From positions 434,001 to 498,000 of the forward strand of contig NZ_SDPW01000001.1 of assembly GCF_004135645.1 (NCBI RefSeq): a stretch of DNA of 64,000 bases, in the 5' to 3' direction. Shown piece by piece: positions 8,542 through 58,865 of this stretch (position 1 is the first letter of the stretch; the number at the start of each line of letters is the position of its first letter). The notes under the pieces were generated by a model that saw only the letters and a list, made by a program, of their open reading frames with translations, was not told the origin of the DNA and ran no database searches. Source of the DNA: Senegalimassilia faecalis (lineage in GTDB: Bacteria; Actinomycetota; Coriobacteriia; Coriobacteriales; Eggerthellaceae). A program made the position numbers and the translations under genes.

Positions 8542-8646
8542 TGTTAGCGTCAATATATTTTTCACCATTTTCACCAACGTATTTTCGCCAATCGCGCCAA
8601 CGCGGATGCGCCGGATTCGCCAACGCTGATGCGCCGCTTCCGGCGT

Positions 8647-10831: not shown

Positions 10832-10836
10832 CTTGG
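10832..10836 (+). repeat. IS21 target duplication, right copy (CTTGG)
   Basis: Direct copy of 8537-8541, adjoining the CGCTAACA terminus. Confidence 0.8.
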
Positions 10837-11004
10837 GGACCGGGCGGCCTCGGACCCGTCATGCCGCGGGCCGTTGGGGAGCCCGCTTACGCGAGGCCCG
10901 GTCCCAGAGGCGGCGCCCGAGCCGGGCCGCCGCCTGCGGGGGATCCCCCGCGCCCCTAGAGAGACGCGCCCGCCGCGCGGCGGGCCCGAGGAAAGGAATC
11001 CGCC
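10837..11004. other. Non-coding segment before mobC, candidate oriT
   Basis: This 168-bp GC-rich segment lies directly upstream of the relaxosome genes, the usual position of oriT for MobC/MobA systems. It contains inverted repeats such as GCCCGG/CCGGGC, and, read on the minus strand, CGTAAGCGGGCTCC, which only loosely resembles known MOBP nick regions. The mobC ribosome binding site GAGGAAAGGA is at its right end. No nick site can be assigned from sequence alone. Confidence 0.35.
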
Positions 11005-34233: not shown

Positions 34234-34482
34234 CTAGCCCCTTCTGGGCGAGCCGACGATGCTGTTCCGCTCGACCCATGCGACGAGCTCGTCGTGCAGC
34301 ACGATGCCGTCGCGCGTCTTGCCGCCGATGTAGCGGATCGGGAACGGGTCGTCGGGGTCCTTGGCGAGCCGGTACATTGCGTCGCGGCTGATGCGCAGCA
34401 TCGCGCACGCCTCGTCGGCGCCGAATATCGCGTTGGTCGATGCGATGAGCCTCACCTGGCTCCTGCTAATGCTCTTGGTCAT
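34234..34482 (-). CDS. Excisionase-family helix-turn-helix protein
   Basis: An 82-residue MerR-like/excisionase DNA-binding protein: ATNAIFGADEACAMLRIS-type layout, seen as FGADEACAMLRISRDAMYRL, then a wing (FPIRYIGGKTRDGIVLHDEL). The Shine-Dalgarno AAAGGAG sits in the loop of a CCTCGAG/CTCGAGG hairpin. A truncated copy exists at 42367-42537. Its role could be control of excision or of the transfer operon. Confidence 0.75.
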   Translation of the reverse strand: MTKSISRSQVRLIASTNAIFGADEACAMLRISRDAMYRLAKDPDDPFPIRYIGGKTRDGIVLHDELVAWVERNSIVGSPRRG

Positions 34483-34560
34483 GGTCGTCCTCGAGCTCCT
34501 TTCGTCTCGAGGCTCCCTCGCGTGCCCGGCCGCGGGCGGCTCCCGGGGCGGTCGCCGCCG

Positions 34561-34779
34561 TCATTTTCTCCCGCTCCTCGACTCGATGTAGGCGTCCACT
34601 GACGCCCTCGACACCAGGAGCTTCCTTCCGAGCCTGTACGAGTCGACCTCGCCCGACCAGATGAGGTCGTACGCCTTGCTTCGGCTCGCCCCCATGTACT
34701 CCTGCATCTCGATCACCGTCATCCACTCGTCGCGGCCCCGGTTGCTCTCGGGTGCCGCGCATTTCGTAGCGTGCGCCAT
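34561..34779 (-). CDS. Small excisionase-type DNA-binding protein, copy 1
   Basis: ATG 34779 follows GGAGGAG. The 72-residue protein has the excisionase fold: MTVIEMQEYMGASRSKAYDL (helix-turn-helix) and SYRLGRKLLVSRASVDAYIE (wing). It is the first gene of the transfer transcription unit. The second copy (42616-42834) differs at several positions, mostly at the N-terminus. Confidence 0.8.
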   Translation of the reverse strand: MAHATKCAAPESNRGRDEWMTVIEMQEYMGASRSKAYDLIWSGEVDSYRLGRKLLVSRASVDAYIESRSGRK

Positions 34780-34848
34780 GGCTCCTCCAATCTTTCCGCG
34801 CGATGCGTCTGCGCGGTCTCGCGTGCGTTTTCGTCTGCGCGACGATTG

Positions 34849-34866
34849 AACCGCCTGATTGCGGTT
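34849..34866. repeat. Inverted repeat upstream of copy 1 control gene
   Basis: AACCGC, 6-nt spacer and GCGGTT, conserved in both copies of the module. Possible operator. Confidence 0.5.
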
Positions 34867-34890
34867 GGTGCGCACGACGGGAGCAGAGAC

Positions 34891-34910
34891 GGGTCGAGCT
34901 GGGTCGAGCT
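34891..34910. repeat. 10-bp tandem repeat (GGGTCGAGCT x2), operator candidate
   Basis: Exact tandem duplication, followed by a partial third unit GGTCG. It lies 112 bases before the small DNA-binding gene and matches 32861-32880. Confidence 0.6.
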
Positions 34911-34974
34911 GGTCGTGCCTTCACGAAATGGCCATGAGCCGCGTGCTTTAGCTGCGAGCTAAGTCCCTGAAAAG

Positions 34975-34998
34975 TAAAAGGCGCCCATGCGGGCGCCT
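34975..34998 (-). terminator. Intrinsic terminator on the minus strand, copy 1
   Basis: AGGCGCCC, loop, GGGCGCCT, then TTTTAC on the minus strand. No gene precedes it within several hundred bases, so it probably ends a non-coding transcript. Conserved in the second copy near 43044-43063. Confidence 0.7.
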
Positions 34999-35241
34999 GC
35001 CTAGTAGCTGGAGTTGTTCAGTTTTGGTTGGAATGCTTCTCTTCCGCGGTGCTGTCGTCCGGGGTCCGGCATCTGTCGTTCGCCTCTTTTGTCGTGTTTG
35101 ATGTTGCGTGTTCTGCGAGCGACCTTGCGCGGGCCTGCCGGCCCGTTGCCCCAGGTGCACCCGGGTAAATGGTACCCACCCGCTGGGACACAGAGACTGC
35201 GGGAGGGCCGTCTGGGCAGGCTGGGATGGACGAGCGGGCGT
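34979..35241 (-). ncRNA. Candidate small RNA conserved in both module copies
   Basis: This segment and its counterpart near 43044-43306 are about 88% identical, have no convincing gene, and end in the same minus-strand terminator. The one shared open frame shows mostly amino-acid-changing differences, so it is not under coding constraint. A GGGCC/GGCCC hairpin inside keeps its stem while its loop varies. The 5' end is not defined. Confidence 0.35.
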
Positions 35242-35634
35242 CGACGGCTCGATTAGGGCTTCTCCGTTACCCTGCAGCTGTTCTCGGTCGCCCGAACGAC
35301 AATATCGCCGAGGTCCGCCACGCCCTCGTCGAGCTGAACGACTTGAGGCCAGACCTCGCGGACATTCTCGCACCGCTCTCGTTGACTAAGTGCCCATCAG
35401 GATCGAATCGTTCCGGGCTTGATTCTGGGCTAAGGCAATATTCGCGACAGCGCTCACTTTCCAGTAGATTCGCGTTGTCGTTCCGGGATTTAGGAGAATT
35501 TCTCTCAGTGAAATCGGATATACCGCATCCATTATTCCGGGCTTCTCAGTTCTGTCATTGACCCAGGTATCACCCGTCTCCTATAGCGAGTGAATATAAA
35601 AATAGGGCAGAGTCGCTTGCGCAAGTCCGCCCCT
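35242..35634. other. Intergenic region without supported gene
   Basis: Unique DNA between the repeated module and the Abi gene. Short frames exist, but none has a ribosome binding site or family resemblance. Confidence 0.5.
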
Positions 35635-35663: not shown

Positions 35664-36626
35664 CTATTCTACCAACCCGAGCGATTCTGTCAACCTGCGA
35701 AGGAACTCGAGCGCGGAGCGAGCTGCGGCGTCGGGCCCCTTGTCGGGCAGCGCCTCGGTTTCGCCGTCGGCCCTGGCGAACATCTCGGCGAGCTCGGATG
35801 CGGCGCGCGAGCGCGAGGAGCCCTCGGGTACCAGGCCGGAGTGCGCCACGAGCACGGTCGCGACCTCCTGCATGGCCGTGTTCCCCATCCACTTCCTCCT
35901 GGTCGCCTTGGGAATTCCCACGGCGGCGACCCTTCGGGAGACGCCGCTGGACGCCGAGCCCCGGGCGGCGCCCCTCTCGGCGAAGCAGTTGATCAGGCAC
36001 GAGCCGTGCGCGGCGCAGTTGCGGACGGACTTCACGCGCTTGAGATCGTAGTGGGAGGCCTCGAGCCGCCTGTCGCCCCATCGCCTGGCGCAGAAGCGCA
36101 CGAAGTCGATGAGGGTGCCGAACGAGGTGAGCTCAAGGAAGGCCCAGGCAGGCATGTCGCCGGAGTACTTCGCGTAGAGGCTCGAGCTGTAGGGGCTGCG
36201 GCCGCTCATCTTGAGCTCGCGCAGGCGGTACTCCCTGTTTGCAGTGGTAAGCGATGCCATGTAGTCGGCCACGATGGCGTAGCCGTCCTCTCCGCGGTCC
36301 TCCATCTCGCGAAGCAGTGTCACCTTCTGGAAATGCTCGATGTCGAGCGTCATGCCGAGCAGGGCGTGGCGCAGCTCCTGGTCGAGCGCCGCGAGCAGGC
36401 GCAGCTGGCCGAAGTCGAGGTCTACGTAGCGGCCGTCGCGCGGGCCTCCCTCGTATTTCGAGAAGAGTTTGCGGTAGGATGCGAGCTTGAAGAAGTTGCA
36501 CTTGTCGCGCAGGTAGTCCGCGGCCTCTTCCTCGGAACACAGCTCGAAGGCTACGCCCTTCTGCTTGAGGTGCTCTATCTGCTGCTCGATCGTGAGGATC
36601 GGCTTCCTATCGTGGGGTTCGGCCAT
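35664..36626 (-). CDS. Abi_2 family (AbiD/AbiF-like) abortive infection protein
   Basis: A 320-residue protein with AGGAG before its ATG. Family blocks are ILTIEQQIEHLKQKGVAFEL, FFKLASYRKLFSKY, LDQELRHALLGMTLDIEHF and AKYSGDMPAWAFLELTSFGT. The block VKSVRNCAAHGSCLINC contains R-x4-H, the HEPN ribonuclease-type motif seen in AbiD/F proteins. Such genes abort phage infection by RNA damage. It opens the defence block and is transcribed alone. The C-terminal 90 residues are less conserved in character. Confidence 0.85.
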   Translation of the reverse strand: MAEPHDRKPILTIEQQIEHLKQKGVAFELCSEEEAADYLRDKCNFFKLASYRKLFSKYEGGPRDGRYVDLDFGQLRLLAALDQELRHALLGMTLDIEHFQKVTLLREMEDRGEDGYAIVADYMASLTTANREYRLRELKMSGRSPYSSSLYAKYSGDMPAWAFLELTSFGTLIDFVRFCARRWGDRRLEASHYDLKRVKSVRNCAAHGSCLINCFAERGAARGSASSGVSRRVAAVGIPKATRRKWMGNTAMQEVATVLVAHSGLVPEGSSRSRAASELAEMFARADGETEALPDKGPDAAARSALEFLRRLTESLGLVE

Positions 36627-37167: not shown

Positions 37168-37321
37168 GCGAAGTTTGGTGCAAGAATGGTGCAACAGGAC
37201 GAAGTCCCCGATTCTGTTGCACCACTTTTGGAAAGGTGGTTTTGGAGATGGCGAGAGACACAGTAAGAACTACTCACAGCATCACGATTTTGTACGTTCA
37301 AGCTTCGTGATGGCGTCATCT

Positions 37322-37759
37322 TTATTCATATCGCACTTCATTCCCGTCTCGCCCGTCAACCTCTTTCAACCTCAACAGCCAGCGTCTCATGCTCCCGTCC
37401 TCAAAGAAGCCGAGCAATGCTCCATCGCAGAAGCGTTCTGCTCTCACGGCTCCGAGCAGAAGCGCCATCACCGCCTGGCCGTCAAGTTCCGATACATCTG
37501 CCCCAGACATTGCTTGGCTGCTCCACTCGAGTCCGTTGCGTTCAAGTATGTCGTGGTAATGCGTGAGCTCGTACTCGGGATGCTCGTCGACGAAGTCGTA
37601 GATTGCCTGTTCAACGTCAGCAACCGTCGTTCCGTAATTCACGTAGGGCATCTTGATTGGGTCGTTCATGGTGCCCTTGCTCTCTCGGTCTACAACCCAG
37701 TTGCCAAATCCCTCGGCATTCTCAATCGCAGGCAGATGTTTTGTCAGGCTCTCAAACAT
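37322..37759 (-). CDS. DUF6508-like protein of the McrBC operon
   Basis: ATG 37759 overlaps the mcrC stop, with GAGGCGG upstream. The 145-residue protein starts MFESLTKHLPAIENAEGFGN and contains PYVNYGTTVADVEQAIYDFV, LTHYHDILERNGLEW and LLGAVRAERFCDGALLGFFE, the pattern of DUF6508. Its function is unknown. Overlap with mcrC suggests it belongs to the restriction unit, perhaps as an accessory or regulator. Confidence 0.65.
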   Translation of the reverse strand: MFESLTKHLPAIENAEGFGNWVVDRESKGTMNDPIKMPYVNYGTTVADVEQAIYDFVDEHPEYELTHYHDILERNGLEWSSQAMSGADVSELDGQAVMALLLGAVRAERFCDGALLGFFEDGSMRRWLLRLKEVDGRDGNEVRYE

Positions 37760-38837
37760 AAGCCGCCTCTGTTGAGAAATGAGCTTCAGCAATACCGTCG
37801 AGCTGCAAACGTATTGTCTCGAAGGGCTGGTTCAGGTCCAATGTCCTCACGCTTATCTGGTTACCGCTCATCTGATACACACCATCAGGCTGCACGTCTT
37901 CGTCGGTCTTGGCGTAGAGCAGCATGCCCGACACGCTATGCTGGTCGTGAGTGCTGGCGAGCTCCGCTTCCTTGTTCTTCACGTAGGTGAAGATCTGGTA
38001 CAGGTTTCCGGAGTGGACGCTTCGCTTGTCGAACTGCTGTTGCGTCGTGTGACTGTAGTACTTCGCGTCGATGATGAGGACGGTCCTGCCTCGTGTGAGC
38101 GTTATGTCGGTGTGCATGGCGGGGAGCATATCGCCGAAGCCGTCGTCGAGTGCCCAGCTGATGTACGGCGCCCCTGCGGAAAGCTCTGGGTGCTCACGTC
38201 TGTAGTACTCGAGGATGAACTTCTCGTACAGGTGGCTCATTCGCTGCTCGTCGAGGAAGTCCATCATGCGGAGACTCCCGCTCTCCCGCGTCTGGAGAAG
38301 GCCCTTCGCGACCAGCCAGCACACGTTCATGAGCATGCGATAAGTCTGGTTGTTCCGGTCGAAGCGCATGTGCCAGTCTTCGCCCGAAAGGTTCACGTCT
38401 TCCACGTCCACGAAGTACGGAAGCAGCCGTCTAAGTGCCTTCTTGCGCGCCTTGTCGATGTCCGAGCGAATCAAGAGCATGATCGTCGCCTTGAGGATGC
38501 GGTTCATGTGAGTGTCCGTGCTGAACTCGTCGTAGCTGCAAATCAGCTGCCTGCGCAGAATTGAGCGCGTCTTCAAGGACTCGGACAGCTCAATCTTGCC
38601 CCTCGGTGAGGAGAGCATATCCTTGCGGTCGATGTACTCTCGGCCAAGACCGCGCTTGAGCTGCAGGCTCACGCCCCGTGACAGTATCTCGGCGAGGAGG
38701 TCGGCGGTGTTGTCGAACTCCTCGGCTGCGATGTCGCGGTAGCCCTGCCCTTGCAGCGTCTGGAACGCATAGGCGAGCATGTGGTAGATGTTCTGTATCC
38801 GGATCACCGGATTGACCTGCGCAACTTGCCGGCCCAC
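37752..38837 (-). CDS. mcrC: McrC-like nuclease subunit
   Basis: A 361-residue protein. The N-terminal region (PVIRIQNIYHMLAYAFQTLQ) is typical of McrC/5-methylcytosine restriction subunits. The PD-(D/E)xK nuclease centre is MHTDITLTRGRTVLIIDAKY (Asp, then D-A-K). The start overlaps mcrB by 34 bases, so both are coupled. It should cut DNA when activated by the McrB motor. Confidence 0.88.
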   Translation of the reverse strand: MGRQVAQVNPVIRIQNIYHMLAYAFQTLQGQGYRDIAAEEFDNTADLLAEILSRGVSLQLKRGLGREYIDRKDMLSSPRGKIELSESLKTRSILRRQLICSYDEFSTDTHMNRILKATIMLLIRSDIDKARKKALRRLLPYFVDVEDVNLSGEDWHMRFDRNNQTYRMLMNVCWLVAKGLLQTRESGSLRMMDFLDEQRMSHLYEKFILEYYRREHPELSAGAPYISWALDDGFGDMLPAMHTDITLTRGRTVLIIDAKYYSHTTQQQFDKRSVHSGNLYQIFTYVKNKEAELASTHDQHSVSGMLLYAKTDEDVQPDGVYQMSGNQISVRTLDLNQPFETIRLQLDGIAEAHFSTEAAYV

Positions 38838-40993
38838 TCGTCGACCTTGGTGGGCTCGTCGAACCAGTACTCGCGCAACATCGGCACGAGCTCGTAGTTG
38901 ACGATTGCTGAGAGCTTATCGTCCGTCACGTCGTCCGGGGACATGCGGCAGAAGTAGCTATGGCCGATGCAGAAGCCGTCTCCCAGCGACTCGTCGGACG
39001 CGATCGCCTCGTTCAGCTTCACGACGCAAGAGATGAGCCTATCGAACTTCTCGCTGGCAAGTCCCTCCTGATAGGCGATGAAGCTCTCCGTGCCGAAGGC
39101 GGGACGGAGGTCGAAGAACGCGAAGCGGCGGCGCAGGGCGTAGTCGAGCATGGCGAGCGAGCGGTCCGCTGTGTTCATCATTCCAATGAGGTATACGTTG
39201 CTCGGGACGTAGAACAGCTCGTGCGAGTAGAGGAGCTGCAGCGTGTTCCTGGGCCCGCGCTTGTCGTTCTCGATGAGCATGAACAGCTCGCCGAAGATCT
39301 TCGAGAGGTTGCCACGGTTGATTTCGTCGATGATGAAGAAGTAGTCGTTGTCAGAATCGTCCTTCGCATTCTTGCAGAAGTTGTAGAACGCGCCCTTCTC
39401 GAGGTCGAAGCCCTGCGCGTTCGGACGGAACCCCTCTATGAAGTCCTCGTAGCTGTAGCTCTGGTGGAACTGCACCATCATCACACGCTCGGCGTCCTTC
39501 ACGCCCATCATGGAGTAGGCCAGGCGCTTTGCGGCGAAGGTCTTGCCCACGCCCGGGGCACCCTGCAGGATGATGTTCTTCTTCGCGCGCAGGGCGTTGA
39601 CGAGGGCCCTGTAGTGCTCGCCGTCCATGTAGACCTCCGAGAGGAAGTCCTCAGACGTGTACGCTGGGTATTCAACCTCCTCCGTGTCTTCCTCGACTTC
39701 GCCGCCCTCGTCCTCGAAGAACGAGTTGAGCTTCTCAACGAGGTCGGGATAGGCGGTGATGTCCGTCAGGGTCTTCACGGCGAGGAGGTTTTCCGTGTGC
39801 CACTCTCCTCTGTTCGTCCAGCGTACCCTGCGGATGTTCGGATAGGAGTCGCCATTTTCGTCGAATTGGTAATCCCCCTCAACGATGCCGCGACCAATAA
39901 TCACGCTGCGGCCCCGCTTAGCAAAGACAACGTCGCCCGGCTTGATTTCGCGCGAGAACTGCCAGAGCGCGAGCGCAGAGTTCTTCTGCGAGTACTTGCT
40001 ACTGTACAGGGTGCGCAGGTTCTTGCGGATGTCTTCCTTGCTGGCGTATTTCTCGACGTTGCCGAGCTTACTCCAGCCGACGCCCATTACGCCACGTGCG
40101 TAGAAGTCATCCCACCTCGCGGCACCGTCTCCCGGGGAGTAGGTCCAGTAATGTGTGGTCTTGACCCCCTCGTCTCCAAGGGAATTTTCTTCCGCCTTCT
40201 CGGCTGCAGCCTTCTCGGCGACCTTCCTCTCACGGTTGACGCGCTCAGACTCCACGAAGGCGGCAGCCGTCAGCGAGGGGAAGTCTGCATACGAGCACTC
40301 TTCGCTTCCGAGCTCCGACTTGATGGTGTCGCAAATGGCGAGGTAGCGATCTCCGTCATGAACTGGCGAGTCCTTCTCCTTCGGCACTATGCCGGCGATG
40401 GTGGTGCCAGCCTTTGCGACGTCGGCCATGAACCAGCGGTTGCGCGAGTCCAGGCTGATGAAGTTGTAGGGCCTCGCCCAGTAGAGGCCCATGGTGAGCT
40501 TCCAGCCAAGTGTGAACTGGATGACGGTGGTATCGAATGCCTCGACGAAGGCCTTCCGGGTTTCCTCGTTGTCGTCGGCGGCCAGTGCAAGTTCGGCCTC
40601 GAAAACGTGCCAAAGGTTATCGATGTCGTGCTCGCCGCGACGTTCGTCGTTGGCGAAGGCATAGAAGGTCGCGTTGAGGTTGTTGAGCACGGGGATGCCC
40701 TCGAAGTCCGTGGGCTGATCTGCCCCAATGTCGAACACCTCGGCGATGCCGGCGATGATCTTTTGCCGGTTTGCGTCTGTGATGCCCTTGTTGAAGAGGC
40801 CGAAGACGGTGAACGGATCGATGTCTTGGAGCTCATCTGCCTCAAGCTTAGGGAGACTCATCCCGGTCGATTCATAGACAGTTGCTAGCTTGTTTATCAG
40901 ATCGTCGCGCCTGTCTCGATAGGTCAGCAGCTTGTCAGATAACTCTTTATAAAAGCTAATCCAAGTAAATTTTGTGCTGGTCATTATAGTCAC
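38804..40993 (-). CDS. mcrB: McrB-like AAA+ GTPase with an EVE-type reader domain
   Basis: A 729-residue protein. The N-terminal 270 residues are helical. A PUA/EVE-like domain follows (HYWTYSPGDGAARWDDFYAR, GDVVFAKRGRSVIIGRG), a fold that reads modified bases. The C-terminal McrB motor has Walker A ILQGAPGVGKTFAAKRLAYS, Walker B FFIIDEINRGNLSKIFGELF and the signature MNTADRSLAMLDYALRRRF. With McrC it would restrict DNA carrying a modified base. The GTG at 40991-40993 or ATG at 40984 could be the start; both have weak sites. It overlaps the truncated methyltransferase frame by 38 bases. Confidence 0.9.
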   Translation of the reverse strand: MTIMTSTKFTWISFYKELSDKLLTYRDRRDDLINKLATVYESTGMSLPKLEADELQDIDPFTVFGLFNKGITDANRQKIIAGIAEVFDIGADQPTDFEGIPVLNNLNATFYAFANDERRGEHDIDNLWHVFEAELALAADDNEETRKAFVEAFDTTVIQFTLGWKLTMGLYWARPYNFISLDSRNRWFMADVAKAGTTIAGIVPKEKDSPVHDGDRYLAICDTIKSELGSEECSYADFPSLTAAAFVESERVNRERKVAEKAAAEKAEENSLGDEGVKTTHYWTYSPGDGAARWDDFYARGVMGVGWSKLGNVEKYASKEDIRKNLRTLYSSKYSQKNSALALWQFSREIKPGDVVFAKRGRSVIIGRGIVEGDYQFDENGDSYPNIRRVRWTNRGEWHTENLLAVKTLTDITAYPDLVEKLNSFFEDEGGEVEEDTEEVEYPAYTSEDFLSEVYMDGEHYRALVNALRAKKNIILQGAPGVGKTFAAKRLAYSMMGVKDAERVMMVQFHQSYSYEDFIEGFRPNAQGFDLEKGAFYNFCKNAKDDSDNDYFFIIDEINRGNLSKIFGELFMLIENDKRGPRNTLQLLYSHELFYVPSNVYLIGMMNTADRSLAMLDYALRRRFAFFDLRPAFGTESFIAYQEGLASEKFDRLISCVVKLNEAIASDESLGDGFCIGHSYFCRMSPDDVTDDKLSAIVNYELVPMLREYWFDEPTKVDEWAGKLRRSIR

Positions 40994-41435
40994 TGCCTAT
41001 CTTGTGCCTCTGCCGAGGCGCCTTGCTTTCAATGTCTTTCCATATGCGTCTACATGCGCGACGGGTATCTTCATCGAATCTAAGTATACCAACGAGTATC
41101 TCTGCATCAATGTAATCCAATGCTTCGTCGATATTGCGCCCATTTCTTACTACTCCGTCAATTACGCTGATAACGTTTCTTTTTAGCTCGGGATTAATGT
41201 TCAATAGACCGGTATTGAGAACATGGATATTGCCAACTTCCTTGGGCAGAATCTCAAGCACACCGCCCCTATAGCTTCTGCCGCAAAGCTCCGTGAATGC
41301 GAACGCAATGCTGTTGTAATGGGCTATAATTGCAAGCCCCGGGTCAATGCCACCCCTGAATTTCATCCTATGTATGGTGTCAGTTGATATTGCACCGCAC
41401 CGATTAAGAACAAGCTTGGGATAGAGATTATTCCG
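40956..41435 (-). pseudogene. C-terminal fragment of an adenine-type DNA methyltransferase
   Basis: The frame contains KLVLNRCGAISTDTIHRMKF and FAFTELCGRSYRGGVLEILP, blocks found near the C-terminus of N6-adenine methyltransferases of type II systems. The catalytic NPPY and SAM-binding motifs are missing. Upstream the frame runs into a hairpin repeat (41458-41490) that is unrelated, so the 5' part was lost by rearrangement. It directly precedes mcrB, suggesting it was once part of the same restriction-modification operon. Confidence 0.65.
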
Positions 41436-41457
41436 ATACAATAATAAAATGCCAGAT

Positions 41458-41490
41458 AGTGGGCACGGTTTAATCGAATCCGTGCCCACT
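41458..41490. repeat. Dispersed hairpin element, copy 1
   Basis: AGTGGGCACGG, 11-nt loop with AATCGAAT, CCGTGCCCACT. Nearly identical to 46942-46975 including the flanking AGATAG and CTGCT. Confidence 0.7.
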
Positions 41491-41627
41491 GCTTTATGCG
41501 GAGCGATGATGGTGGCCGGTGCTCGCGATATTATTGCTTGCGTTTCGGCTTCCGCTGCTTGAGGCGCGTCTTTTGGGGTTCCTCGCCAGAGGAGAACTGA
41601 CCGTTCCTTGCGAAACCGCGAGACCAG

Positions 41628-42302
41628 CTATATCCGCTTGCTGCGGGCTTGCTTGAGCCAGTTCCTCTTGAAAGAGCCGATACCGCCGAAGAACTTGTTG
41701 TACGTCTCACCGTTCTCCTTGGCCTCGTACTTGACCAAGGCAAGTTCGATAGTGCAGAGGTAATCCGCCACTTGCTCGAGGCGGTAGTCGGCCATCGAGG
41801 TCTTGCGGCGTCGGACGACCCCTTTTGAGAGGACCTTGCCCACCGAGCGGCCGAGCGCCTGCTTGACAATGTCCTGACCGTTGTCGTAACAGACCTTCAC
41901 ATCGTCGAAGGGCTGGAAGAAGCCCAGGTGTTCAATCATGGCGGAGGAGATGTCGCGCCCCATGCGCTCCATTAGCCTTGCCAGGTCTTCAAACTGGCTG
42001 CGGCGGTAGACGAACGTGATATAGGAAATGGGAAGTTTGCGGACGAACGAGGAGAAATAGGCGAGCATCACCTTGCGCTGCTCGATGTTAAGAAACTCAT
42101 AATCCTTGTGCCCGTTCATGAGAGGCTCGGGGTGAAACGGAATGTTTGGGAGGTCGGCCCCGGCAAGCTTGGCCTCATAGCCCGTGACCGCCTCGGCGAT
42201 GCTGTCTGCCCGGTCGTGGAAGACGAGTGTGAGCAGATAGTAGCGAGCTTTGCCGCCGCGGTCGCCGCTCTCGTCGACGAAGATGCTGAGTTCCTTGGCC
42301 AA
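41628..42302 (-). CDS. DUF3800 protein
   Basis: A 224-residue protein with the DUF3800 start (LSIFVDESGDRGGKARYYLL; the D-E-S-G acidic pair) and later acidic positions (VCYDNGQDIVKQALGRSV, MADYRLEQVADYLCTIELAL). The family has an RNase H-like fold and is frequent in mobile and defence regions. The start is the TTG at 42302, preceded by AGGAG seven bases away. It is the last gene before the second copy of the ICE control segment. Confidence 0.8.
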   Translation of the reverse strand: MAKELSIFVDESGDRGGKARYYLLTLVFHDRADSIAEAVTGYEAKLAGADLPNIPFHPEPLMNGHKDYEFLNIEQRKVMLAYFSSFVRKLPISYITFVYRRSQFEDLARLMERMGRDISSAMIEHLGFFQPFDDVKVCYDNGQDIVKQALGRSVGKVLSKGVVRRRKTSMADYRLEQVADYLCTIELALVKYEAKENGETYNKFFGGIGSFKRNWLKQARSKRI

Positions 42303-42366: not shown

Positions 42367-42537
42367 TCAATAAGCCACCAATAACCTTATAACATGCGCT
42401 GGCGGTGAATGCAAGGGGGCGAGCCGGTACATGGCGTCGCGGCTGATGCGCAGCATCGCGCACGCCTCGTCGGCGCCGAATATCGCGTTGGTCGATGCGA
42501 TGAGCCTCACCTGGCTCCTGCTAATGCTCTTGGTCAT
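42367..42537 (-). pseudogene. Truncated copy of the excisionase-family gene
   Basis: The first 40 residues equal those of the gene at 34234-34482 (through DAMYRLA). The frame then enters unrelated sequence and stops after 16 codons, so the wing is lost. It marks the left edge of the duplicated segment. Confidence 0.75.
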
Positions 42538-42615
42538 GGTCGTCCTCGAGCTCCTTTCGTCTCGAGGCTCCCTCGCGTGCCCGGCCGCGGGCGGCTCCCG
42601 GGGCGGTCGCCGCCG

Positions 42616-42834
42616 TCATTTCCTGCCGCTCCTCGACTCGATGTAAGCGTCCACTGACGCCCTCGACACCAGGAGCTTCCTGCCGAGCCTGTACGAGTCG
42701 ATCTCTCCCGACCAGATGAGGTCGTACGCCTTGTTTCTGCTCGCCCTCATGTACTCCTGCATCTCGATCACCGTCATCCATTCGTCGCGGTCCTGGCTTC
42801 CCTCGGGCGCGGCGCATTCGGCTGCGCGTGCCAT
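42616..42834 (-). CDS. Small excisionase-type DNA-binding protein, copy 2
   Basis: 72 residues from ATG 42834 with a GGAGGAACC site. The helix-turn-helix reads MTVIEMQEYMRASRNKAYDL and the wing SYRLGRKLLVSRASVDAYIE. The changes G-to-R and S-to-N in the recognition region distinguish it from copy 1, so the two proteins may bind overlapping but not identical sites. Confidence 0.75.
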   Translation of the reverse strand: MARAAECAAPEGSQDRDEWMTVIEMQEYMRASRNKAYDLIWSGEIDSYRLGRKLLVSRASVDAYIESRSGRK

Positions 42835-42955
42835 GGTTCCTCCAATCTTCCCGTGCGGCACCGCGCGAGCACCCCGCACGGCACCGTGTCCCTTTTCGTC
42901 TGCACGACGATTGAACCGCCTGATTGCGGTTGGCGTGTCCGACGGGAGCGGAGAC

Positions 42956-42980
42956 GGGTCGAGGTAGGTCGAGCTGGTCG
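42956..42980. repeat. Degenerate copy of the tandem operator repeat
   Basis: GGGTCGAGGTAGGTCGAGCT with one-turn spacing plus GGTCG, in the same place relative to copy 2 as 34891-34910 is to copy 1. Confidence 0.5.
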
Positions 42981-43306
42981 GGTCTTCACGAAACGGCCAT
43001 GAGCCGCGTGCCTTAGCTCGCGGCTAAGTCCCTGAAAAGTAAAAGGCGCCCATGCGGGCGCCTGCCTAGTAGCTGGAATTGTTCGGTTGTGGTCGGAATG
43101 CTCGTATTCCGCGGTGCTGTCGTCCGGGGTCCGGCATCTGTCTTTCGCCTCTTCTGTCGTGTTTGATGTTGCGTGTTATGCGAGCGACCTTGCGCGGGCC
43201 TGACGGCCCGTTGCCCCAGGTGCACCCGGATAAATGGTACCCATCCGTTGGGACATGGGCACCGCGGGAGGGGCGTCTGGGCAAACTGGAGCGGACGAGC
43301 GGGCAT

Positions 43307-43627
43307 CGGTTTGTCAATCAGTGTGCTTTCTTGCGCAACGCTACAACTGGTTTTCGTTGTTTGAGCTGATAGTTTGCTTGCGCTCACCATGGCAATCAAA
43401 TGAAAGTGGTAATGATCAATACTTGATTTGACCGGATAGCATAGCGATGATTCTCTAAGTAGCCAAAACGATGGGATAATGTTCAGTATTAACTTAGATG
43501 GGAGGACGTCTTTCGACTGATGCGTTGATGAAAGCGTTCTCAACGTATCAGTCGATTGGTGCCACCCACATGAACGAAATGAAGAGGTTGTTTGTCGGGC
43601 ATAGGGAATCGATAGGATGGCGCATAG
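43307..43627. other. Intergenic region, AT-richer
   Basis: No gene supported. GC content drops here, marking the start of a different accessory segment. Confidence 0.5.
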
Positions 43628-45182
43628 ATGATCGTAGTAGACGGACGAACCGATAGAGAAAAACTTTTCGAGCTATTAAAGTCTGGCGGTGAATGCAGCG
43701 AGCTCGATTTTAAGGAGACGCTAGATTTTTCCAAGAAGATCGATGAGCTCGATTTTGTAAAAGACGCTGTTTCGATGTGCAACCGTTATCCCGGTGGTTA
43801 CATCGTCATTGGGGTGGACGATGATGGAAATCCATCGGCTAGAGCTGAAGATACCAACTGGACGCAATTTGATGGCGCGGTCTTAACAGACAAAATAAGA
43901 AAATATGTTCAGGCGCCTTTGACCGCCATCTCCCAATTACATGAGGTTGATAGACACACATACTGTTTGGTTTGCCTGTTAAGCCTCGAAGACGGGCTTC
44001 TCGTTCCTTTTTCAAAGCTCGGACAAACAGTAGATGGCAAAGGTCGTCAAATTGTCGTGTTTCGCGAGGGCGAAATAGTTAGGCGCGACGGAGCTCAGAA
44101 TCGGCCCATTGAGTATACACAGTGGGCAGAAATATTGAAGCAGCACGATGCTTGCGTGAGGAAAGACGAGAGCAAACGAATGGATATTCTCGTGGACAAT
44201 ATAATCGCCGTTCTTGGAGAGAAGGGCAAAACGCCGCCTCTCGTCTACGGAATGGATGAAGAAGCGCTTGTGCACTCGCTCGAAGCTTGCTTCGAGCAAA
44301 AGGAGAATGAGAAGCTTTCTCGCTTCATTTTTCAGGTCGCTGCAGAGTTTCACGATGATGCAGATGCGATCAACGGCCTTGCCGGCATCGGGGCCTATGC
44401 CCTTAGCTATTGCAACGACGCGATATTTGAGAAGGCGGCGGATGCTCTCTACGACTGCTACGCCGCAATTGATGATAGTAAGGCGGATTCTGCCTCAAAA
44501 AAGCCTAGCTGTGGCGGTTGCTTGTTACGAATTGGGCGCACAGCTGGTTCGCATGAAAAGATGGGACCTAATTGCCCCCTTCGTCAACCGTCAATCTCCA
44601 TCTCCTTCGCACTTCATATATGCATCCTGGATACGAGACTGCCAGGTTAGGGCCGTGAACGCCGGGCTTTTCAACGAAGCCGGCTCGGGGATGATGATTA
44701 CAGTTGCCTTAGACAACGCCACGAATCACCCGATTGTGGCACCGGATTGCGGACTAAATATGGGCAGTAACGCTTCGGCGCATGAGAGATACCTCGATCT
44801 CCTATGCTCCTTTGACTTCCTTTACTGCTTATGCGTATTTGTTGCAGGGGTGGGCACTGGTCTCGCATATCCCGCCTGTTGCTTCTATTCCGAAAATCGT
44901 ATCTCTAATGTTGCCTCGCAAATCCTAGGAGGTGATCCAAAGGCACGAAGAGAGCTCCTCCCCGACGATGATGATGACAAGATTGCCATGTGTCTAAGGG
45001 AGCTTTATCGGCTTGCGAGCAATGAATCGCTTCAGAAGGATAGCAAATTTTACTGGGGATTCGATCCTTCTCGTGTGCTCAGGAAGTTCTTGCAGGATCA
45101 TCCCGAGCAATCAGATGAGCAGCCTCCCGACATGTTCAGCTACAACAATCCTGATAGAGACCCTAATAACACGAGCCATTGA
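43628..45182 (+). pseudogene. AlbA_2/Schlafen-like domain protein, frameshifted
   Basis: ATG 43628 follows AGGATGG. The first 290 residues carry the AlbA_2 (Schlafen-related, nucleic-acid-binding) pattern: GGECSELDFKETLDFSKKID, KDAVSMCNRYPGGYIVIGVD, then a helical C-terminal region. The frame ends early at 44650, while a second frame continues the protein (LAVAVACYELGAQLVRMKRW to 45182). The switch is at the A6 run 44498-44503, where removing one A restores one protein of about 517 residues. It could be a genuine inactivating slip or a sequencing error. Probably a phage-defence or stress protein. Confidence 0.65.
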
Positions 45183-46735: not shown

Positions 46736-46941
46736 GAAACTGCGGGCTTGCGGTTTCGAAATAGTTTGCGAATTTGCCCCAGGGTTTGTCCCAAACGCGT
46801 GCGCGAGGACACGCGGAGGGATTCGGCGGCAAGGTGGACAAAACCGACAACCAAACTAGACCCAATTGGAATGGCGCCGCGACAAACGAGCATGAAAGAG
46901 TGAATAGAACAGACGTTCGATATAATATTATAGTATCAGAT

Positions 46942-46975
46942 AGCGGGCACGGTTTCAATCGAATCCGTGCCCGCT
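46942..46975. repeat. Dispersed hairpin element, copy 2
   Basis: AGCGGGCACGG, 12-nt loop, CCGTGCCCGCT. The arm change T-to-C relative to copy 1 is matched by A-to-G in the partner arm, keeping the stem. Confidence 0.7.
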
Positions 46976-47061
46976 GCTGTATGTGTGTCCTTGCGCGCCC
47001 AATATGCGCCGTAAAAGCCGTCTTCATCAACGTCAAAGTGAATGCGCTTTATTTTTGCTTC

Positions 47062-47891
47062 TCAAAATCTTATTTTCACGATTTGCATTTTCATCCCGTT
47101 GTCACCGACCCTTGCGAGAAACCGGAAAAAGCCGCTGACAGAAGGATCTCTCAAATCGTTGTAGCCCAGCATATAGCCGCGACTTGTGACCTGCAGACGG
47201 CTGCTCCACGTGCCGATTTCCTTGGCGGCATCCGAAACCGCAAAATATGCCCCCACATCCTTGATTTTTGCAGTCTTTAGCCATGTTTTTGCGATCATCT
47301 TTACTGCCGTCCGATTGGCAGCATCAAAGACCAGCACACCGCCGGGAAAAGCGTCCGCCATCCCCCGCACCAGTTCCCGGACCTGCTGGGCAGAAAGTAA
47401 TAGAACACCCCGGAGGCAAAGAACACCGCCCCACCGGAGGCGTCGATTTTGCCGAACCATGCGGCGTCTTTCAAGTCGCAGGGGATATTTTGTTCCCGAT
47501 CCCCGGCGGGCAGTAGCTGCTGCCGCAAGGCAATCACATCAGGGAAGTCCAGATTGTAGATCTTGCATCTACCGTTGTCACAGGTTCTGCCGGTGTTGTC
47601 CAGCCCGCAGCCCAGATTGACCACCGCCGCATTGGGGTGGCCTTTCAGGTAATCCCGCACCTCGAAAGCAAGATCACCCTGCCGCATGGCCACCTCCAGC
47701 GCACCGAAGCGCTGCATCAGGCTGCGGGAGTTTTTCTCTGCCTCTGAAAAGTCGTAGTCGATCTGGTCGAGCAGGCGAACCGCTGTTTCGTCCCTGTAAA
47801 GGTTCGGGTACAGCTCCGTACACAGCTTTCGGGAATACAGCGGGAGGATCAGCGTCTCCTGCACGGTGTTTTTCTCACTTTTGCATTTCAT
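47062..47891 (-). pseudogene. PPM/LCM-type methyltransferase, copy A, frameshifted
   Basis: Starts MKCKSEKNTVQETLILPLYS (AGGAAGGA upstream) with SAM-binding AAVVNLGCGLDNTGR. After GGAVFFASGVFYYFL the frame fails; the rest (RELVRGMADAFPGGVLVFDA to the end) continues in another frame. Comparison with the intact copy B at 56473-57315 shows one missing base near 47388-47392. The family resembles leucine carboxyl/polyketide O-methyltransferases. Inactive unless the shift is a sequencing error. Confidence 0.75.
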
Positions 47892-48006
47892 AGGTTCCTT
47901 CCTCAGTGAATAAAAACTGTCATAATTGCCGCCAGCACAGCCGCTATGGCCGTCATGCCTATCGCCATGCGCAGGATGGATGCGAAAATGCCCGTGCTCG
48001 ATGCCC

Positions 48007-48612
48007 CTACTTCCGCGCCGTGACGCAGAGCCACTTTCCCTTTTTGCGTATCTGCACCTCGTGAAAGCCCGCCTGCTCCAGACACGCCTTCAATTCAATG
48101 TCCTTGTAGATGGTCATGCCGCCGATGATCCGCGTCCACCTCTCGTCCTTGTCCGTATCGCCATTGCTCTCGTTGCAGATAAGAACTGTCCCGCCCGGCT
48201 TCAGCGTCCGCCGGACCTCACGGAAGCATCGGGGCAAATCAGGCCAGAAATAGACGGTCTCAAAGGCCGTGGCGGCATCGAAGCAGCTATCCTCAAACGC
48301 CATATCCGCCACGCTGCCTTGCAGAACGGCGCAACGCCCCTCCTGAATTGCAGTTCGGTTGAGCTTCCTGGCCTTCTCCACGCTGACGGGCGAATAGTCG
48401 ATGCCCTTGACGACGCCATGCGGGCATTTTTCCAGCAGCCGTTTTATGTTCGCCCCGCCGCCGCAGCCGCAATCCAGCACCTTGGCGTTTGGCGCAAGTC
48501 GTAGAAATCGAAGTCCCCACCGCGCCACAGGGCTGTAGCCCAGGTTCATCATGGCAACCATAAGTTTTCCGCCGAGGCCCACGGGCTTGCGGGTGTTTTC
48601 AAAGAACGACAT
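48007..48612 (-). CDS. Class I SAM-dependent methyltransferase, copy A
   Basis: A 201-residue methyltransferase starting MSFFENTRKPVGLGGKLMVA. SAM motif I is KVLDCGCGGGANIKRLL, followed by KGIDYSPVSVEKARKL, FDAATAFETVYFWPDLPRCF and LKPGGTVLICNESNGDTDKD. Copy B (57644-58249) is the same length and intact. The start overlaps the upstream methyltransferase by 14 bases. The substrate is unknown; co-occurrence with two other methyltransferases suggests small-molecule or metalloid/thiol methylation, which is inference. Confidence 0.88.
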   Translation of the reverse strand: MSFFENTRKPVGLGGKLMVAMMNLGYSPVARWGLRFLRLAPNAKVLDCGCGGGANIKRLLEKCPHGVVKGIDYSPVSVEKARKLNRTAIQEGRCAVLQGSVADMAFEDSCFDAATAFETVYFWPDLPRCFREVRRTLKPGGTVLICNESNGDTDKDERWTRIIGGMTIYKDIELKACLEQAGFHEVQIRKKGKWLCVTARK

Positions 48613-49228
48613 CTAGCCCCTCCGATTTCGTGCATTCCGCATATGTCAACGGGAACGAGGCCTTCAGCACCGCGCTTTTCTGCACCGCCCAGCCGTTTTG
48701 ACGCAGGAAACGCAGGTATTCCTCGCTTGTCCACCTGCTGTGGAGGGGGAATCCCGCCATGCTCATGAAAAAGGCTTTTGCCTTGCCGGAAACCGAGTTC
48801 CCCGCGTGGGTGAAGGTTGGCGCGATGAGCACGCCGTCGTCCTTCAGCACCCGCCTGATTTCTTGCAGGGCCTTTTCCGGATGCGGCACTATATGAAGCG
48901 CGTTGGACGCGATCACCACTTCGAAGGACTTCTGTGCATAGGGCAGGCGGAACATATCTTGTACGGAAAAGTGCAGCTTTGCGGATTGATTGTCCTGTTT
49001 TGCTTCAAGGATCATCTTTGCAGAGGCGTCCGTAGCCTCGATGTGCGCCGCCGCATTCACGATGCTCTTTGCGATAAGCCCCGTGCCGGTGGCAACCTCC
49101 AGCACGGTTTTTTCTTTCACCACCGGCCTGATCAGCCCATACATCTTCTCATACGCCGCCCGGTCGTTTCGCATGAAACGGTCGTACCGACCGGCATTCT
49201 TGTCCCAGAAGCCCTTGCGTTCGTGCAT
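48599..49228 (-). CDS. UbiE-like SAM-dependent methyltransferase, copy A
   Basis: A 209-residue protein starting MHERKGFWDKNAGRYDRFMR. SAM motif I is VLEVATGTGLIAKSIV, then HIEATDASAKMILEAKQDN and VVIASNALHIVPHPEKALQE. It is the first gene of cassette A and intact, whereas the copy B equivalent has a stop after codon 10. It probably methylates a small thiol or quinone-like substrate, but nothing in the sequence decides this. Confidence 0.88.
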   Translation of the reverse strand: MHERKGFWDKNAGRYDRFMRNDRAAYEKMYGLIRPVVKEKTVLEVATGTGLIAKSIVNAAAHIEATDASAKMILEAKQDNQSAKLHFSVQDMFRLPYAQKSFEVVIASNALHIVPHPEKALQEIRRVLKDDGVLIAPTFTHAGNSVSGKAKAFFMSMAGFPLHSRWTSEEYLRFLRQNGWAVQKSAVLKASFPLTYAECTKSEGLDVVL

Positions 49229-56472: not shown

Positions 56473-57315
56473 TCATTTTCTGCCTTCGAACCCGATCTTC
56501 ACGATCTGCATCTTCATCATTTCGTCACCGACCCTGGCGAGAAAACGGAAGAAGCCGCTCACGGATGGGTCGCGAAGGTCGTTGTAGCCCAACATATAGC
56601 CGCGGCTCGTGACCTTCAAGCGGCTGTCCCATGCGCCGATTTCTTTGGACGCGTCCGAAACGGCGAAATACGCACCCACATCCTTGATCTTCGCACCCTT
56701 GAGCCATGTCTTGGCAATCATCTTCACCGCCGTCCGATTCGCAGCGTCAAATACAAGCACACCGCCGGGGAAAGAGTCCGCCATGCGCTGCACCAACGCC
56801 TTGACCTGCTCCGTTAGAAAGTAATAGAACACGCCGGAGGCGAAGAATACCGCGCCACCGGACGTATCGATTCTTGTAAACCATTCGGTATCATTCAAAT
56901 CACAGGGGATGTTCTCCTCCCGTTCTCCGACGGGCAGCAGCTCATTTCGCACGGCAATGACCTCGGGAAAATCCAAATTGTACATCTTGCAGCTGCCGTT
57001 GTCGCAGTTTCTTCCGGTGCTGTCCAGCCCGCAGCCCAGATTGACCACCGCTGCATTGGGGTAGCCTTTCAGGTAATCCCGTACCTCAAAGGCAAGGTCG
57101 TTCTGCCGCATGGCCACCTCCAACGAACCGAAACGCTGCATCAGGCTGCGGGATTTTTTCTCCGCCTCAGAAAAATCGTAGTCGATCTCGTCAATCAGGC
57201 GAACCGCTGTTTCGTCGCGGTAGAGATTCGGGTATAGTGCTGAGCAGACCTTCCGCGCATACAGCGGAATGATCAGCGTTTCCTGTACGGTGTTTTTCTC
57301 GATTCTGTATTTCAT
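56473..57315 (-). CDS. PPM/LCM-type SAM methyltransferase, copy B (intact)
   Basis: ATG 57315 (MKYRIEKNTVQETLIIPLYA) matches the start of copy A. The 280-residue protein has SAM motif AAVVNLGCGLDSTGRNCDNG, then MYNLDFPEVIAVRNELLPVG and GGAVFFASGVFYYFLTEQVK, and ends LARVGDEMMKMQIVKIGFEG. It belongs to the leucine carboxyl/O-methyltransferase-like family. It is the intact version of the frameshifted gene at 47062-47891. It is followed by the ATC hydrolase and ZIP genes. Confidence 0.88.
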   Translation of the reverse strand: MKYRIEKNTVQETLIIPLYARKVCSALYPNLYRDETAVRLIDEIDYDFSEAEKKSRSLMQRFGSLEVAMRQNDLAFEVRDYLKGYPNAAVVNLGCGLDSTGRNCDNGSCKMYNLDFPEVIAVRNELLPVGEREENIPCDLNDTEWFTRIDTSGGAVFFASGVFYYFLTEQVKALVQRMADSFPGGVLVFDAANRTAVKMIAKTWLKGAKIKDVGAYFAVSDASKEIGAWDSRLKVTSRGYMLGYNDLRDPSVSGFFRFLARVGDEMMKMQIVKIGFEGRK

Positions 57316-57415
57316 GGGTATCACTCACTTTCTGATAAGTGGCAGTTTCGGCATGGCCTCTTTGCGCCCCATGGCTTTTCTCCGCGTTTCAATCATCACA
57401 CGACCGCTTCTGGCC

Positions 57416-57632
57416 TCATTTCTCCAAAATCTCCGCGATTTTCGCAAAGCCCTCTTTTGACTCCTTGAAAATCGGCAGCATACAGTAGCAATGCACCATC
57501 TTCGGGCGAGCAAACACCGTATAGGGGACATTTGCCCATTTGCAGGCTTCCTCATAATCCGGCAAAGTGAACGCCTTTTTCGCGCCGGAGAGCCTATAAG
57601 CCCTGTGCAGGATGGATGCAAAAAATGCTCAT
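57416..57632 (-). pseudogene. Small frameshifted gene inside cassette B
   Basis: ATG 57632 with AGGAGGTC upstream. Removing one base from the A6/T6 run at 57620-57625 gives a 71-residue protein starting MSIFASILHRAYRLSGAKKA, then EEACKWANVPYTVFARPKMV and ending EGFAKIAEILEK. Copy A retains only the IFASIL start region. Function unknown. Confidence 0.55.
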
Positions 57633-57643
57633 GCTTGACCTCC

Positions 57644-58249
57644 TCATTTCCGCGCCGTGATGCACAGCCAACTTTTCTTTTTGTGTATCTGCACCTCGTG
57701 AAAGCCCGTCTGCTCCAGATACGCCTTTAATTCAATGTCTTTGTAGATAGTCATGCCACCGATGATCTCCGTCCACTTCTCATCCTTGTCCGTATCGCCG
57801 TTGCTTTCGTTGCAGATGAGAAAGGTCCCGCCGGGCTTCAGCACCCGATAGACCTCCCAGAAGCACCGCGGCAAATCAGGCCAGAAATAGACGGTTTCAA
57901 AAGCCGTGACCGCATCGAAGGACGCATCCGTAAAATCCATACGTTCCACGCTGCCCTGGCATACGGCGCAGCGTCCATCCCGAATGGCACGCCGATTCAG
58001 TTTTTGGGCCTTCTCCACGCTGATGTCGGAATAATCAATACCCTTGACAATCCCCCGCGGGCAGCTCTCCAGCAGCCTTTTTATGTTTGCCCCGCCGCCG
58101 CAGCCGCAATCCAGCACTTTGGCATCCGGCACAAGTTCCAAAAAATGAAATCCCCACTGCGCCACGGCACTGTGCCCAACGTTCATCATGGAAACCATGA
58201 GTTTCCCGCCAAGGCCCACGGGTTTGCGCGTGTTTTCAAAGAACGACAT
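57644..58249 (-). CDS. Class I SAM-dependent methyltransferase, copy B
   Basis: A 201-residue paralogue of 48007-48612: MSFFENTRKPVGLGGKLMVS, KVLDCGCGGGANIKRLLESC, FDAVTAFETVYFWPDLPRCF. Intact, same length and same neighbours as copy A. Both copies differ at scattered positions, so they diverged before or independently of the cassette decay. Confidence 0.88.
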   Translation of the reverse strand: MSFFENTRKPVGLGGKLMVSMMNVGHSAVAQWGFHFLELVPDAKVLDCGCGGGANIKRLLESCPRGIVKGIDYSDISVEKAQKLNRRAIRDGRCAVCQGSVERMDFTDASFDAVTAFETVYFWPDLPRCFWEVYRVLKPGGTFLICNESNGDTDKDEKWTEIIGGMTIYKDIELKAYLEQTGFHEVQIHKKKSWLCITARK

Positions 58250-58250
58250 A

Positions 58251-58865
58251 TCACACCTCCGATTTTGCGCACTCTGCGTAAGCTAGCGGGAACGAGACTT
58301 TCAGCACGGTGCTTTTCTGCACCATCCAACCGTTTTCCCGCAGAAATGCCAGATATTCTTCGCTCGCCCACTTGCTGTGCAGCGGAAAGCCCGCTAGCTT
58401 CATGAAAAACCCTTTGACCTTTCCGAAGAAAGAGTTATCCGCATGGGTGAAGGTCGGCGCAACCAGAACGCCATCGTCCCTTAGCACCCGGCGAATTTCG
58501 GAGAGAGCCTTCTCCGGCTCCGGCACAATATGCAGAGCATTGGCCACAATGATCACGTCAAAGCTTTCGTCGGCATAAGGGAGATGAAACATATCCTGCA
58601 CGGAGAAATGCAGCTTGGCGGATCGGTTGTCCCGCCGCGCTTCCGCGATCATCTCCGGCGACGCATCCGTAGCCTCGATATGATTGGCGCTGCTCACGAT
58701 ATTTTTCGCAATCAACCCCGTACCGGTAGCCAGCTCCAGCACGATTTTTTGACACACCACAGGACGCAGTAATTCATACAGCTGCGTATAGACCGCCGCA
58801 TCCTTGCGCATGAAGCGGTCGTATCGCCCAGCTTATTTGTCCCATAAATTTTGACTTTTCTTCAT
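58251..58865 (-). pseudogene. UbiE-like methyltransferase, copy B, interrupted by a stop codon
   Basis: From ATG 58865 the frame reads MKKSQNLWDK and then TAA (58833-58835), where copy A has Asn (WDKNAGRYDRF). After the stop the same frame continues AGRYDRFMRKDAAVYTQLYE and the full methyltransferase domain (VLELATGTGLIAKNIV). Internal initiation at MRKDAAVY (58811) would give a 186-residue protein lacking the N-terminal helix. Confidence 0.7.

Follow-up and report, generated by a model that had tools for sequence, protein, structure and literature searches.

A McrBC-type locus of Senegalimassilia faecalis, probably carried on mobile DNA, with DUF6508 as a probable third component

The restriction enzymes McrBC and GmrSD read base modifications, and the reversal of nucleic-acid ADP-ribosylation forms a separate, fast-moving field; ADP-ribosylglycohydrolases (ARH), Macro and NADAR are the three superfamilies that fully reverse ADP-ribosylation. 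In McrBC, as set out in the available part of one description, McrB is the GTP-specific motor and McrC its partner nuclease (PMC7680126). The accessible text of another source gives the fusion of an EVE domain to McrB as the commonest EVE fusion in defence (PMC7641849), and for GmrSD, the part of a survey that was at hand lists DUF4268, DUF4357 and DNA_binding_1, not DUF6508, as extra domains (PMC4619093). Here we describe a locus of S. faecalis in which mcrB and mcrC are followed by a gene for the uncharacterised domain DUF6508. It lies in a stretch of 64,000 nucleotides (nt) on contig NZ_SDPW01000001.1 (positions 434,001 to 498,000), which was analysed as a whole and is called the window below. 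Since mcrB and mcrC are complete with their catalytic motifs and the DUF6508 gene overlaps mcrC, we consider it fairly probable that the locus is an intact type IV McrBC unit, probably the cargo of a mobile element, with DUF6508 as its true third component.

The genes are read from the minus strand (Table 1), and from 43308 to 34363 their order is DUF3800, a methyltransferase stub, mcrB, mcrC, DUF6508, a stub of 15 codons and an Abi_2/AbiD gene. The window McrB is a McrB-type AAA+ GTPase with the N(x)xD signature: it matches AAA_5 (8.5e-24), its residues 444-724 match E. coli McrB in a PDB sequence search (3.2e-88), and it contains the motifs GAPGVGKT, IIDEINRGN and NTAD (the NxxD signature, MNTADRS in the sequence). 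Adjoining mcrB is the gene of the McrC nuclease subunit, which matches NF007277 (8.1e-131; 436 bits against a cut-off of 338, from residue 9 onwards) and PF10117 (2.2e-35) and has the D...DAK motif; counted from its first GTG, mcrC overlaps mcrB by 34 nt, and from a later start by 4 nt. The DUF6508 protein scores above the curated cut-off of PF20118 (51.4 bits against 23.6, profile positions 7-126 of 129) and its start overlaps the mcrC stop by 8 nt. As each gene from the methyltransferase stub through mcrB and mcrC to DUF6508 overlaps the next, their translation is probably coupled. An earlier sequence-only reading had claimed a McrBC-type unit here with a DUF6508 gene coupled after mcrC; the McrB and McrC matches, which point to type IV, and the PF20118 match with its 8-nt overlap bear out both claims. 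Its extent for the unit, 37322-42302, holds for mcrB, mcrC, DUF6508 and the truncated methyltransferase, and the last part of that span is the separate DUF3800 gene.

The link between DUF6508 and mcrC was followed in a survey of 396 genomes of the class (Coriobacteriia), 36 of which hold 37 DUF6508 places (31 examined as loci, the other six by coordinates alone) and 58 of which hold McrC matches, weak ones included. Eight of the 37 places are linked to mcrC, seven of them directly behind it and one sharing a frame of 487 amino acids (aa) with it (G218). Seen from the side of McrC, seven of the 30 loci returned from the class have DUF6508 downstream, the window's own included, and among 13 other full-length McrC loci of at least 69% identity, DUF6508 follows mcrC in all five at 86% or more and in one at 74%. 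A wider set was made of the best 80 of 137 contig relatives, ranked by likeness to the window DUF6508, and 11 viral-contig loci; collapsing the 91 at 85% identity left 56 for the counts. Six loci (L069, L070, L071, L072, L078 and L097) are the same records as contigs of G320, G309, G305, G025, G104 and G218, thus not independent of them. McrC was found within 6 kb of DUF6508, or fused to it, in 12 of the 56 (L069, L072, L074, L078, L086, L097, L100, L104, L107, L118, L126 and L144). Its density is about 20-fold higher near DUF6508, on small counts: eight loci have McrC within 1 kb (7.46 per 100 kb) and one has it at 6-10 kb (0.35 per 100 kb).

The arrangement is not constant, DUF6508 standing behind mcrC in the window clade, L107/L119, L100 and L126, before mcrB in L104/L111/L113 and L076/L086, and fused to the C-terminal end of McrC in Collinsella ihumii L097 (PF10117 5e-30 and PF20118 1e-6; the same place as G218, hence one case). 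Several of the McrBC systems concerned are divergent, with McrC identities of 61-62% (L104/L111/L113), 50% (L107/L119), 49% (L097) and 23-24% (L126 and L076/L086), and the McrC of L100 was recognised by Pfam (1.2e-48). In a tree of 50 DUF6508 domains (the 56 loci and L151, minus eight whose tblastn stretch crossed a stop, plus the window), the McrC label, borne by 13 rows, needs 10 changes, at least five of them forced by well-supported branches. Label shuffles average 11.8 changes and 59 of 500 were as low as observed, so the rows with the McrC label are spread over the tree and do not form a single clade. A repeated association of DUF6508 with McrC is the simplest reading of these data. The link thus recurs across genera and beside divergent McrBC, with one fusion, and the purely incidental adjacency that was to be guarded against in the sequence-only reading appears unlikely.

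DUF6508 also shares frames with other enzymes. Thirteen joint frames were scanned singly with Pfam and the others were judged by local profiles or totals; ten of the 13 have Pfam partners (ARH in two, Macro in two, NADAR in four, McrC in one, GmrSD with DUF4268 in one) and three (L092, L096, L161) have none. The ARH fusions are L087 (7e-35) and L122 (1e-37) by Pfam and L134, L146 and L153-L155 by local profile, the Macro fusions L151 (6e-26) and L124 (1e-25), and the fusions with GmrSD and DUF4268 L089 by Pfam and L090 and L091 by local profile. NADAR is joined to DUF6508 in L175 (5e-45), L176 (4e-44), L178 (4e-38), L177 (local profile) and, split over two frames, in L182 (6e-9), where a weak HD_4 match (20.7 bits, below cut-off) is the sole further partner in the scanned frames. 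In L153-L155 a GmrSD gene lies at most about 3 kb upstream of the ARH-DUF6508 gene, L144 holds ARH, McrB, McrC, a gene matching a seed from L121 and DUF6508 within 6 kb, and one Nmad3 match (Pfam) was found among the DUF6508 neighbours.

Other neighbours recur as well. Two uncharacterised families of about 226 and 335 aa with no Pfam match (L125 9319-9990, L131 10395-11402 and relatives) stand on either side of DUF6508 in several loci, and the C-terminal part of the shorter one (L125) also ends several ARH-DUF6508 fusions. Proteins like the DUF7662 protein (Pfam match in L117) are found beside DUF6508 in L082, L092, L117, L120 and L142.

The DUF6508 domain carries a conserved RAERFCDG-like motif, and the columns invariant among the 50 aligned sequences (including G19, P38, Y68, R106, A107, F110, C111 and G113) are alike in the McrC-linked and the ARH-, Macro- and GmrSD-linked copies. 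The NADAR-fused copies stood outside this alignment; of the Pfam DUF6508 profile they cover no more than the C-terminal two thirds. Since the invariant columns are alike for McrC, ARH, Macro and GmrSD as partner, the pattern suggests one shared binding role. The AlphaFold2 model of the window protein is mostly helical with two short strands and is confident (predicted local distance difference test, pLDDT, 91.6; predicted template modelling score, pTM, 0.84). Among the families listed by VIA-align the best Z scores were 5.5 (CheA3 P1 domain) and 5.1 (the HepT mutant 6m6w), which are within the background for helical models, so that neither is put forward as the fold of DUF6508.

As to how the unit might work, a GTP-driven McrB ring would translocate DNA and McrC would cut it, as is known for the family. 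DUF6508 would bind on the McrC side of the complex, since one relative has it joined to the C-terminus of McrC, and could serve as an adaptor or reader that governs the time or place of the complex's action. In view of the fusions of this domain to GmrSD, ARH, Macro and NADAR, the most likely signal would be ADP-ribosylation, or another modification derived from nicotinamide adenine dinucleotide, of nucleic acid or protein during phage attack, a choice that we put forward tentatively. DUF6508 might read ADP-ribosylated nucleic acid, or it might tie restriction enzymes to the machinery that removes such marks, which could, for example, reverse an inactivation made by the phage. A broader proposal, speculative and on the unlikely side, is that DUF6508 is the recognition module of an ADP-ribose-linked defence network and guides either the nucleases McrBC and GmrSD or the ADP-ribose removers ARH, Macro and NADAR to nucleic acid modified in this way; if true, the window McrBC would sense ADP-ribosylation, alone or besides a modified base. 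In the available parts of the literature searched, DUF6508 is named nowhere and the string PF20118 occurs in alginate epimerase papers only, judged by their titles; "type IV restriction" together with "ADP-ribosylated DNA" occurs nowhere in the same literature. The fusion pattern would be a first functional lead for DUF6508, and one uncharacterised domain fused both to type IV nucleases and to ADP-ribose removers offers a concrete and cheap way to ask whether type IV restriction and ADP-ribosylation belong to a single antiphage circuit.

A number of observations weigh against DUF6508 as a true third component, or against the ADP-ribose signal. DUF6508 is absent from seven other McrC loci (L026-L028, L030-L033; 69-80% identity) and is therefore inessential to McrBC; most DUF6508 places lie away from McrC (44 of 56 in the wider set, 29 of 37 in the class); and the seven adjacent class cases have related McrC proteins, at least 74% identical to the window's, so that they are not independent. 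In one close relative (L053) the mcrB frame is interrupted. The DUF6508 model found nothing meaningful by Foldseek, its best match having an E value of 1.4 in the PDB and 0.47 in BFVD. Finally, neither ARH nor NADAR was matched in the window's genome and its one Macro match lies about 0.8 Mb off, so that the ADP-ribose reading is without support inside this genome. The first three points, and in particular the McrC relatives at 77-80% that do without the domain, would suit the alternative that DUF6508 is a defence-island hitchhiker that came to lie beside mcrC in one successful mobile lineage and takes no part in restriction. However, the link recurs beside McrBC systems unlike that of the window, in either order and once as a fusion, and McrC falls to about one twentieth of its density away from DUF6508 (eight loci against one), so we regard the hitchhiker as distinctly unlikely.

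Another alternative concerns the role of DUF6508 and not its membership. As a docking or control subunit rather than a reader, it could tether ADP-ribose hydrolases to restriction enzymes and thereby undo inactivation by phage ADP-ribosyltransferases, or keep the nuclease switched off until it has been modified by a phage transferase. L127, L144 and L153-L155 do combine DUF6508 with an ADP-ribose hydrolase and a type IV enzyme, and in L176 a GmrSD_N-like gene (2.6e-7, below the curated cut-off) precedes the DUF6508-NADAR gene. However, the operon in the window has no ARH, Macro or NADAR gene, and with no ARH or NADAR match in the genome DUF6508 would have to work here with no partner hydrolase encoded in cis; next to the locus no ADP-ribosyltransferase was seen, and no transferase target is known. 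We hold this role to be unlikely for DUF6508.

What McrB itself reads is a related question. The sequence-only reading had placed a PUA/EVE-like domain in front of its motor, and one could suppose that a true EVE domain reads the modified base and that DUF6508 only helps. The reader slot comprises about residues 273-446 (window 39656-40177). In 197 class genomes six EVE places were found, and five of them lie upstream of a McrC place and share its strand, the frames measuring 704-818 aa. Three of these five McrB proteins (L183, L184, L188; 38-40% identity overall) have the N-terminal region of the window McrB, with the slot at the corresponding position. PADLOC PDC-S02 models also match over the slot (6.9e-18), and the standing of EVE-McrB as the commonest EVE fusion in defence, cited above, would fit. 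However, with a Pfam limit of E 10 (the HMMER filters drop most matches above about 0.1 even so) neither the window McrB nor 18 related slots gave an EVE match, one of the 18 having a weak PUA match (0.05), and hhalign of the slot against the EVE-matching domains of the class gave a probability of 1.6%. PDB sequence and profile searches with the slot returned no match of note, and the AlphaFold2 model of McrB (12 sequences; mean pLDDT 59.5, mostly below 50 in the slot) is uninformative there. The balance leans against an EVE domain in this McrB, and a reader of that kind, with DUF6508 as a mere helper, is possible and in our view somewhat doubtful. A divergent PUA-like reader may occupy the slot, or a different domain may have been swapped in at this position.

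The adenine-type methyltransferase that had been described as truncated before mcrB is indeed so. The stub matches M_Eco57I_C (7.3e-7, profile 147-239 of 283) and PADLOC MTase_II (9.6e-34, profile 398-534 of 539), and the N-terminal three quarters, with the catalytic domain, are absent. No second match to the stub was found anywhere in the window's own genome, and a scan of viral contigs with it returned no relative. In L050 and L051 the piece is shorter still (homology ends at 41230) and frameshifted, and L016, L017, L052 and L053, where the sequence upstream of mcrB is present, have no match to the stub. Because five of these six relatives without an intact copy (L016, L017, L050, L051 and L052) keep full-length mcrB, mcrC and DUF6508, the methyltransferase is, on this comparison, dispensable, as expected for a type IV enzyme. 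It was rejected as a present partner, given that only a C-terminal piece is left here and that the piece in relatives is shorter and broken, and it is a relic without a present role. Elsewhere, L112 (6094-7812) and L117 (5263-6981) encode full-length methyltransferase-like proteins of 572 aa, each about 4 kb from a DUF6508 gene; in their C-terminal part they share 40% identity with the window stub. The stub in the window begins at a palindromic repeat with a second copy at 46918-46983 (85% identity between the copies). This repeat is present in four out of 138 genomes from the family, counting that of the window.

A second truncation is found at the other end of the unit. The fourth gene of L050, L051, L069, L070 and L072 encodes a DpnII/MboI-type nuclease of 264-270 aa (PF18742 2e-41 in L069), and it is within this gene, at 37297/37298, that the window sequence departs from that of three relatives. 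The position after DUF6508 holds a different pair in L052 and L053, a zinc-ribbon-like protein (Pfam matches below cut-off in L053; its start also read in L052) and a protein of 276 aa (PADLOC PDC-M14B in L052, with a like protein in L053). Where McrBC relatives have no DUF6508, mcrC is followed by a DUF1016/YhcG nuclease (L054) or DUF6998 (L055). What comes after mcrC thus varies among relatives, and in one clade the third gene is always DUF6508. Supposing that the methyltransferase once protected the host, the sequence-only reading had taken its loss to imply either that the nuclease now targets only foreign modified DNA or that the system is being dismantled. This is answered in part: as far as the reading frames tell, trimming in the window hit the accessory genes and spared the nuclease.

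Table 1. Features of the McrBC-DUF6508 locus and its borders, in window positions
Feature	Position	Strand	Description
Direct repeat copy 1	34363..35243	.	region of small HTH_17 gene (1.4e-11)
Abi_2/AbiD-type protein	35664..36626	-	downstream, same cargo; PF07751 1.6e-18; PADLOC AbiD 1e-22
Fourth-gene stub	37282..37329	-	15 codons, the first 11 aligning with relatives
DUF6508	37322..37759	-	145 aa, ATG at 37759; PF20118 1.3e-13
mcrC	37752..38837	-	361 aa from first GTG, shorter if later GTG used; nuclease/activator subunit
mcrB	38804..40993	-	729 aa: N-terminal region, uncertain reader slot, AAA+ GTPase 444-724
Methyltransferase stub	40956..41489	-	C-terminal part of Eco57I-type N6-adenine methyltransferase; 177-aa frame; overlaps mcrB start
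Palindromic repeat	41434..41498	.	66 bp; methyltransferase stub begins here; hairpin z-score -3.65
DUF3800 protein	41628..42302	-	224 aa, own gene; PF12686 5.4e-6, 27.6 bits against cut-off 21
Direct repeat copy 2	42418..43308	.	excisionase-like HTH_17 gene (1.1e-12; TIGR01764 excise 8.7e-12)

The defence cargo is flanked by two direct repeats of 0.9 kb, 90.1% identical over 892 positions, and recombination between them could delete the entire cargo. On one side lies a gene set that we infer to be conjugative (a HerA/DUF87 ATPase, an NlpC/P60 protein with glucosaminidase and a large thioester/T-Q adhesin). The guanine-plus-cytosine (GC) content falls from about 0.70 before 34000 to about 0.55 at the cargo and changes little from there to the end of the window, so that composition marks one border only. 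Over 3.9 kb (37298-41230) the DNA is 96.6% identical to that of loci in two genomes (L050, L051) which belong to a different family within the order; their McrB, McrC and DUF6508 proteins are 94-97% identical to those of the window. The McrBC-DUF6508 unit has thus probably moved between families and is probably the cargo of mobile DNA. As to its vehicles, 50,697 phage records yielded nothing for the DUF6508 protein at E 1e-5 and a single short match for the cargo DNA (67.5%, inside mcrB), and McrC matches 142 plasmid records, all below 60% identity. Three further features of the window stand outside the cargo: the adhesin (19908-22649), a surface protein of 913 aa with thioester, T-Q ester-bond and SpaA domains that belongs to the conjugation-like gene set; a plus-strand Schlafen/AlbA_2 gene (43628-44650) just beyond direct repeat copy 2; and a block of about 2 kb with a methyltransferase-like gene (47072-49210 and 56495-58847), duplicated at 77-82% DNA identity about 9.5 kb apart.

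One could also see in this locus a decaying remnant that restricts nothing any more, given that two accessory genes are truncated (at 37298 and at about 41450), that the cargo is bounded by direct repeats and that the relative L053 has an interrupted mcrB. However, mcrB, mcrC and DUF6508 of the window are full length, overlapping and intact in their motifs, and the high protein identity to the copies in the two genomes of the other family argues in the same direction, which makes a dead remnant very improbable.

Among known systems, E. coli K-12 McrBC is alike in its AAA+ GTPase with the NxxD signature and in its McrC nuclease subunit. It differs in the reader, which is DUF3578 in E. coli according to the accessible text of PMC7641849, whereas the window has another reader slot and, in addition, a DUF6508 gene overlapping mcrC. 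Type I restriction-modification genes before mcrBC are described for the E. coli branch in the part of PMC11090510 that is available, and a likeness to this is found in the relative L054, not in the window: there (6428-11435) hsdM and hsdS (Pfam) run into mcrB with overlapping stops and starts and form an hsd-mcrBC operon, and the frames of L055 and L056 resemble this arrangement. The same part of that source defines CoCoNuT, the NxD branch of McrBC, by a shortened NxD signature in McrB (PMC11090510), and membership was rejected, as the NTAD of the window McrB is NxxD. The EVE-McrB fusions, as far as the available text describes them (PMC7641849), have the same order of N-terminal region, slot and GTPase, and the N-terminal region is common to L183, L184 and L188; unlike in these, the slot of the window has no EVE match by Pfam or profile comparison. 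GmrSD is a type IV restriction enzyme that is likewise fused to DUF6508 in relatives, although as a DUF262/DUF1524 enzyme it belongs to a family other than McrBC. The ARH, Macro and NADAR hydrolases are each fused to DUF6508 in relatives as well, and none is found in the window locus. Measured against these systems, the unit is a McrBC variant in which DUF6508 is most likely a true third component.

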